A stretch of DNA of 64,000 nucleotides from Chryseobacterium taeanense (lineage in GTDB: Bacteria > Bacteroidota > Bacteroidia > Flavobacteriales > Weeksellaceae): contig NZ_FNDW01000006.1 in assembly GCF_900099685.1 (NCBI RefSeq), positions 62,001 to 126,000 on the forward strand. The letters run 5' to 3'. The notes beneath the pieces are model-generated. The model worked only from the letters and a program-made list of their open reading frames with translations, searched no databases and was not told the DNA's origin. A program made the translations under genes and the position numbers. The stretch's first letter is position 1. The number at the start of each line of letters is the position of its first letter. Below, one piece after another: positions 62,630-64,000 of the stretch.

Positions 62630-63214
62630 ATGATGACAGGCAACTATTTCACAGAAGAGCATTTCGAAAATACGGATTTTACACAGAAACCTTTACAAAA
62701 GGCAGAGTACGAAAACTGTACATTTAGAAACTGCAACTTTGAATATGCAGATCTTTCAGGATTCAATTTTAATGACTGTGAATTTATCGGATGTAATCTG
62801 AGCATGATAAAGTTGCATTCCACAGCCTTTCGGGACGTTGCTTTTAACGAATGTAAAATGATCGGGCTTCACTTTAGCGATTGCAATGAGTTTGGAATGT
62901 CATTCCGTTTTAGCGGATGCATATTAAGTAATTCCATCTTTTATAAAACAACTCTCAGGAAAACATTTTTTGATAAGTGTACCCTTACAGAAGCAGATTT
63001 TTCAGAGTGTGATCTATCGGGAGCTGTATTTAAAGAATGTAATTTCTCGGGAGCCGTTTTCGATCATACAAACCTTGAAAAAGCAGATTTCAGAACCTCC
63101 ATAGCATATTCTATAGATCCTTCTCAAAACAGACTTAAAAAGGCGAAATTTTCCCTTTCTGAAATCTATGGTCTCTTATATAAATTCGATATTGAAATTG
63201 ATAGGAACAGCTAG
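62630..63214 (+). CDS. Pentapeptide-repeat protein
   Basis: 194 residues. From about residue 9 to 160 the sequence follows the A(D/N)LXX-type repeat in the F-rich form (FENTDF, YENCTF, RNCNF, FNDCEF, FSECDLSGAVFKECNFSGAVFDHTNLEKADF). The predicted fold is a right-handed quadrilateral beta-helix like Qnr and MfpA, which mimic DNA and protect gyrase. Similarity to Qnr is only at fold level; resistance cannot be concluded. Transcribed alone. Confidence 0.9.
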   Translation: MMTGNYFTEEHFENTDFTQKPLQKAEYENCTFRNCNFEYADLSGFNFNDCEFIGCNLSMIKLHSTAFRDVAFNECKMIGLHFSDCNEFGMSFRFSGCILSNSIFYKTTLRKTFFDKCTLTEADFSECDLSGAVFKECNFSGAVFDHTNLEKADFRTSIAYSIDPSQNRLKKAKFSLSEIYGLLYKFDIEIDRNS

Positions 63215-63348
63215 CTGCTGAGATTCGAAAGAAATGCAACCATTTCATTTGCTTGCAGGGGACTTGATGAAGGGCTGGCTATGTGCAAAATTATCCGCAA
63301 TCATTGTGAAAATCTTCAGCAGATCCTGAGTAAATTTTGTCTAATAAG
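63215..63348. other. Spacer after the pentapeptide gene
   Basis: 134 nt. Short stretches (for example GTCTAATAAG and the Cys/Lys-rich translation in one frame) could be gene debris, but no frame holds up. Nothing supportable. Confidence 0.3.
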
Positions 63349-63375
63349 AAAAGTAGTCTTGGTTGGACTACTTTT
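63349..63375. repeat. Left inverted repeat (27 bp), also a terminator-like hairpin
   Basis: AAAAGTAGTC-TTGGTTG-GACTACTTTT: a 10-bp stem with a 7-nt asymmetric loop, identical as an inverted copy to 63537-63563. A further T follows. It is 134 nt after the pentapeptide stop and can terminate that transcript. Confidence 0.9.
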
Positions 63376-63536
63376 TCAGCTACAAATGTAAACAAAATAT
63401 TTTCACCGCCAAATACTAACCTCTTATTTTCTAATTTCTTACATATTGACAACAAAAACCACAAGACTTCACAAACTTACACTGCGGTTTTCTTGATTTA
63501 TTTTATATATTTGTGATCTATTGTTCATTACCAAGG
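63376..63536. other. Candidate invertible promoter segment
   Basis: 161 nt between the inverted repeats. Near its left edge a full-consensus leftward promoter reads TTTG (complement of 63411-63414), 20 nt, TACATTTG (complement of 63383-63390). Near its right edge a rightward -7 box TATATTTG is at 63506-63513, without a good -33 element. Inversion would place the better promoter 7 nt from the right repeat, facing the exported-protein gene with a leader of about 41 nt. No recombinase gene is in the window. Confidence 0.45.
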
Positions 63537-63563
63537 AAAAGTAGTCCAACCAAGACTACTTTT
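63537..63563. repeat. Right inverted repeat (27 bp)
   Basis: AAAAGTAGTC-CAACCAA-GACTACTTTT, the exact reverse complement of 63349-63375. It lies 13 nt before the start codon of the next gene. Confidence 0.9.
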
Positions 63564-63576
63564 TACTATAGCACGT

Positions 63577-64000
63577 ATGAACACAATGATGAAATGTTAT
63601 GAACCCTTTCCGTTACTACGTTTTTGCGTAGTTTGGTTGTATATTTTCATCCCTTCAAAAGCATATTCTGGTTCGTTTGTACCGGCAGATTCCATTATTT
63701 TCGTAGCTGAAGACTCATATGTTTATTCAGAAACATCTGTTTTTATTGCAGGTTCTGAACAGAATAAAGATTTTACATCAGCTAAAAAGTCTGGAGGTTT
63801 TCTCACAAGATCATCCTTACCATTTTCTACTCAAAAATCAGTCAATATTGCAGCCCATAAGGTCTGCTATACAGGAAGTCTGTGGAACCGTAATGACCCC
63901 GGACGCATTTCTCGTACCTCAATGTTGGGGATTATGGGAGGCTCTTCAGTAAAGCTTCATGACAAAATAATAAAATCTTTATTTCTCGCATTTGTAGTAA
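63577..64000 (+). CDS. Exported protein, 3' end outside the window
   Basis: Open from the ATG at 63577 to the window edge (141 codons, no stop), with other in-frame ATG codons at 63586 and 63589. An N-terminal hydrophobic run RFCVVWLYIFIPSKAYSG reads as a signal peptide. The following part (SIIFVAEDSYVYSETSVFIAG ... KSLFLAFVV) is not like any family I know. The right inverted repeat is 13 nt upstream. It may be a longer surface protein. Confidence 0.5.
   Translation, partial: MNTMMKCYEPFPLLRFCVVWLYIFIPSKAYSGSFVPADSIIFVAEDSYVYSETSVFIAGSEQNKDFTSAKKSGGFLTRSSLPFSTQKSVNIAAHKVCYTGSLWNRNDPGRISRTSMLGIMGGSSVKLHDKIIKSLFLAFVV

Follow-up and report, generated by a model that had tools for sequence, protein, structure and literature searches.

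The window analysed here, a 64,000-nucleotide stretch of the Chryseobacterium taeanense genome, ends within the first gene (gene A) of an operon encoding an exported protein, and a promoter-bearing segment bounded by two inverted repeats lies immediately upstream of that gene (Table 1). The first-pass annotation had described the repeats as perfect over 27 bp and as enclosing 161 nt. Indeed, the two arms are exact reverse complements at 27/27 positions. It had further placed a full promoter facing left, with the gene at 63577 behind it; the promoter and its direction stand, as evidenced by motif reading of the minus strand (-7 box at 63390-63383, -33 TTTG at 63413-63410), but the two boxes are separated by N19 and not by N20. 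Toward gene A there is, as proposed, only a weak -7 box. This box is invariant in the nine closely similar copies of the module described below and is possibly a weak second promoter, in which case the state inferred to be OFF may allow some expression and would better be called low. When the segment is reversed computationally, the end of the strong -7 box falls 47 nt before the ATG at 63577, giving a leader of ~40 nt, in line with the ~41 nt originally estimated. The suggestion that each repeat can also form a hairpin is likewise borne out by folding of each 27-bp arm, which gives stems of 10-11 bp at -11 to -12 kcal/mol followed by U residues; a terminator scan, however, listed neither of the window arms.

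On the other side of the segment, the strong promoter as sequenced would read across 62630-63383 toward the 3' end of a pentapeptide-like gene (62630-63214), and antisense RNA to that gene would be expected if the left site fails to terminate transcription.

Table 1. Features at the right-hand end of the window and just beyond it
Feature	Position	Strand	Description	Basis or remark
Left recombination site	63349..63375	+	Core TAGTC-TTGGTTG-GACTA at 63354-63370; 7-bp spacer at 63359-63365	Exact inverted partner of the right site
Right recombination site	63537..63563	+	Core TAGTC-CAACCAA-GACTA at 63542-63558; 7-bp spacer at 63547-63553	
Proposed invertible segment	63376..63536		161 bp, promoter-bearing	
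Strong Bacteroidota promoter	63383..63413	-	TTTG-N19-TACATTTG	Points left, away from the operon (inferred OFF)
Right-facing -7 box	63506..63513	+	TATATTTG	Without a good -33
Gene A	63577..64000, continues past window end	+	First gene of the switched operon; exported, 189 aa	ORF; paralogues at nine further loci
Gene B, then gene C	Downstream, outside the window		Adhesin-like (B); HU-like (C)	Pfam

Ten site pairs and one recombinase gene

When the window assembly was searched with 63300-63600, nine module copies of 91-100% identity and a tenth, divergent one were recovered. Genome-wide, AGTAGTC-N5..9-GACTACT is found at 20 places, compared with one for a reversed control, and all 20 sites fall into ten pairs, each of which precedes one of ten paralogous exported-protein operons. 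Repeats arising by chance are thereby ruled out. Even the divergent copy retains the sites and the promoter boxes, as do the other nine, whereas the central part of the segment is variable, and in ten of ten the promoter is aimed away from the operon. Nine of the switches, which are recent duplicates, share the spacer TTGGTTG; these near-identical copies were counted once in the spacer statistics below. A spacer common to nine dispersed loci should permit recombination between loci, with large inversions or deletions as the outcome.

The other copies are homologous to the window copy from the left repeat onward, and downstream the operons are mosaic. Gene A copies encode exported proteins of about 184-189 aa with a dN/dS of ~0.42 among eight copies; the sequence is short and fast-evolving, and a family search found no known family for it. 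The gene B proteins share an N-terminus like QVGINNTSPKATLDI and have variable C-termini, which in Pfam variously match Fibrinogen_C/GGGWT, Lectin_C (sub-threshold) or DUF5907 repeats. A strict text pattern for these proteins retrieves 20/68 loci, which is an undercount. Gene C, present in most copies, combines HU-DNA_bdg and DUF4469 domains (Pfam). Two repeated elements accompany the operons. A direct repeat of ~258 bp, of which each operon has one or several copies, lies between genes A and B (L009:3148-3664, past the window end, and also L010-L018) and could function as a unit of recombination or regulation. A stretch starting ACAAATCTTTGCGT, immediately to the left of the left site, is common to five of nine copies (L010, L011, L012, L014 and L017) and is possibly a dispersed repeat that marks the route of operon copying.

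The earlier proposal had called for a search for a nearby tyrosine recombinase. One is found beside one of the ten pairs, on the same contig and outside the window: a 412-aa tyrosine recombinase, referred to here as INT, adjoins the divergent tenth pair (L018), on the side away from its operon, at ~33.2 kb, ~92 kb from the window switch at 125.3 kb. The gene is intact, and the C. taeanense genome has no second member of its subfamily. Across 20 INT relatives, the motif positions assigned as catalytic by analogy with the wider family are invariant, namely R (TGQR), K (QxKT stretch), H-x-x-R (SHIGRR), H (TGHS) and Y (KYIN). No solved structure was related to INT in a sequence search. A distance of 46 nt separates the INT start codon from the site core of the tenth pair, whose left-facing promoter reads INT.

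Matched spacers at INT loci

We next consider the site itself across 49 Chryseobacterium and 37 other-genus INT loci. Pairs of TAGTC-N7-GACTA were picked by the ten arm bases only, which avoids the circularity of scores that include spacer similarity. A site pair is present at 47/49 Chryseobacterium loci and at 34/37 loci from other genera, compared with 13/430 shuffled controls; in these 81 of 86 cases, drawn from Chryseobacterium and other Bacteroidota, the pair sits just upstream of the INT relative. The arms are TAGTC/GACTA at all loci with few exceptions. At L155, L188 and L253 a single good site remains at the usual distance, the second having been lost or moved, and at L241 there is none. 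As negative controls we took related integrases that fall outside the subfamily (L264-L270, E about 1e-90 to 1e-100); these have no such site pair. Within the genus, INT is found in only about 34 of 173 genomes (about a fifth), and all 12 Chryseobacterium genomes with the strict motif hold it. A small gene of ~140-150 aa with an IHIGxxIxxRV motif, which may be a regulator, is found repeatedly close to the switches, on the side of the operon (L200, L201, L205, L208, L211, L222, L223, L230, L237, L256, L259, L260 and others).

The spacer differs between loci, and within a pair it is identical in inverted form at 46/47 Chryseobacterium and 34/34 other-genus loci (80/81 together). When only distinct pairs are counted, the spacers match in 29/30 and 17/17 cases, respectively, and when the spacers are re-dealt between loci, these 30 and 17 pairs give ~1 match on average and never more than 6. 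The lone mismatched pair (L177) adjoins an INT gene broken by a frameshift. The bases flanking the arms, by comparison, mismatch about as often as random pairing predicts. A similar pattern is seen away from the recombinase gene in C. taichungense, where the seven copies without INT have six different spacers among them and match within the pair in 7/7 cases.

As tyrosine recombinases cut one strand at one end of the spacer and the second strand at the other end, a product spacer contains one strand from each parent, with the left-parent strands on one chromosomal strand and the right-parent strands on the other, so that a single round of replication renders both spacers identical while the arms and flanks remain unchanged. 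The combination of matched spacers and unmatched flanks is therefore the footprint of completed inversions by staggered strand exchange, and it is not expected of a terminator or a protein-binding site.

Orientation and competing explanations

At 46 of 47 Chryseobacterium INT loci the promoter points toward INT and away from the operon. The exception is L146 (C. luteum DSM 18605), whose best alignments to relatives are reverse complement in 41/46 comparisons; no other Chryseobacterium locus aligned to its relatives in this manner. In other genera, 28/34 face INT, two look flipped and four are ambiguous. Both promoter and alignment place the segments of the two, Mesonia hippocampi L190 and Siphonobacter L209, in the flipped state, and these are probably flipped. 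The opposite orientation that the first-pass annotation had proposed to look for in related genomes thus exists in C. luteum and probably in two more. All eight C. taichungense copies are oriented alike, with the seven INT-less ones facing away from the operon, as do the nine INT-less copies of the window genome. Both orientations occur in nature, then, between species and not within one strain; assemblies show only the majority orientation. The near uniformity (10/10 in C. taeanense, 8/8 in C. taichungense, 46/47 at INT loci) suggests that the segments seldom flip, that flipping is strongly biased, or that culture selects against it. Although real, the bias has no explanation as yet; selection for OFF in culture, directional recombination and low INT activity are all possible.

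It could be argued from these data that a once-active switch is now frozen in C. taeanense, with the copies fixed one way and the sites still present merely because the operon was duplicated recently. The single spacer of nine recently duplicated copies and the common direction of all ten would fit such a scenario. However, INT is intact with its catalytic residues complete, and the sites and promoter boxes have been kept in ten copies, the divergent one among them, while the middle of the segment varies, so we consider a frozen switch unlikely. Less likely still is a role of the sites in transferring or swapping entire operons from one locus to another, as the ends of a cassette or transposon, with local inversion as a by-product. 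The start of homology at the left repeat and the downstream mosaicism of the operons can be read in this way, and the one spacer in nine copies would allow such exchange. Paired sites that are inverted and ~190-210 bp apart would, however, produce inversion and not excision, in C. taichungense the private spacers would keep most loci from exchanging, and the C. taeanense genome has no second site pair at the far end of the operon.

The least tenable alternative is the one that the first-pass annotation had put forward as its main competitor, namely that the repeats are bidirectional (Rho-independent) terminators or RNA hairpins around an ordinary promoter region that never inverts; this has in its favor the hairpin and U residues in each repeat and the almost uniform orientation, but we regard it as highly improbable because loops ~190 bp apart need no match and are nonetheless locked to each other across loci in sequences that vary from one locus to the next, the positions immediately flanking the arms are unmatched, the sites track one recombinase subfamily, flipped copies exist, and neither arm was listed by the terminator scan.

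We favor a site-specific promoter switch operated by INT-driven inversion, to which we assign a probability of roughly 0.86 on the basis of sequence, without reads or transcripts. INT would bind the TAGTC/GACTA arms of both sites, and strand exchange across the 7-bp spacer would invert the 161-bp segment. As sequenced, the strong promoter points away from the operon, which would be OFF or low; after inversion it would face gene A and the exported-protein operon would be transcribed (ON). The original proposal of promoter inversion with the sequenced state OFF is supported by the ten pairs, INT, the matched spacers and the flipped relatives. The sites, their architecture, the linkage to a recombinase, the spacer matches and the inverted segments in relatives are demonstrated here, while the action of INT at the window site, the dependence of transcription on orientation and present-day switching in the C. 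taeanense strain are inferred, the last of these not having been shown.

Known systems and implications

The locus has several of the features that define the tyrosine-recombinase invertible promoters of Bacteroidota: a promoter segment between inverted repeats upstream of a surface operon, a cognate tyrosine recombinase beside a switch (here the tenth and not that of the window), and palindromic arms enclosing a spacer of 6-8 bp with the same sequence in both partners (80/81). In B. fragilis, one tyrosine recombinase inverts both an adjacent and a distant promoter, and the IVp-I promoter is ON in about 1% in culture, a strong OFF bias (PMC4747536). As in that system, the recombinase here lies beside one invertible promoter, the -7 box is of the TAnnTTTG type, the operons are surface-related and an OFF bias is seen. 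The present case differs in the number of promoters assigned to one recombinase, which is ten, in its host, Chryseobacterium (Weeksellaceae), in its TAGTC-N7-GACTA core, and in that the recombinase gene is read by the invertible promoter when the switch is OFF. Mpi of B. fragilis likewise serves many dispersed invertible promoters of surface loci (PMC4747536), but it is a serine recombinase, whereas INT is a tyrosine recombinase.

The invertible promoters of Bacteroidales capsule operons have GTTAC-GTAAC palindromic repeats and neighboring integrases (PMC12118408). They resemble the family described here in their 5-bp palindromic arms and 7-bp spacer (GTTAC-TTCTTAG-GTAAC, GCTAC-N7-GTAGC), in the adjacent integrase and in the phase-variable surface operons under control. 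Membership in the GTTAC-N7-GTAAC subclass can be dismissed as the arms here are TAGTC/GACTA; in addition, the segment is about 160-190 bp in place of about 280-345 bp, and the products are adhesin-like exported proteins and not capsules. A read-based survey reports inversion signatures in one Flavobacteriia sample (PMC5903667). Our literature search for promoter inversion in Chryseobacterium or Flavobacterium returned nothing relevant, and it found no report of the TAGTC-N7-GACTA site or the INT family; since the search left out most subscription papers, this is weak evidence for novelty. Promoter inversion by tyrosine recombinases is already known in Bacteroides, and what appears to be new is the motif, the lineage and a recombinase that disconnects itself.

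Promoter inversion in Bacteroidota has been studied almost solely in gut Bacteroidales. The family described here is large, lies outside that group and combines a defined site with a recombinase of its own; it extends through Chryseobacterium, Empedobacter, Elizabethkingia, Sphingobacterium, Mucilaginibacter and others, which include environmental and opportunistic bacteria. Private matched spacers offer a means to spot real switches in assembled genomes with no need for reads, and with the orientations tallied, the cause of the OFF bias can be put to the test.

For C. taeanense, ten operons with different adhesin-like proteins under the same switch and one recombinase would constitute a phase-variable surface repertoire. 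The INT locus may have a special place within it. Its promoter would read INT in the OFF state, and a flip to ON would disconnect INT from that promoter; as the INT start is only ~46 nt from the site, there is little space for a promoter outside the invertible segment, and we infer from the sequence that the ON flip should silence INT. The INT gene may thus be an output of its own switch, the ON flip removing its sole evident promoter and locking the other nine, so that the locus would act as a master memory switch for the ten-operon repertoire. We put this forward tentatively, as a possibility that is on balance somewhat doubtful. If it is true, a flip of the INT locus to ON would freeze the nine other promoters in whatever state they held.
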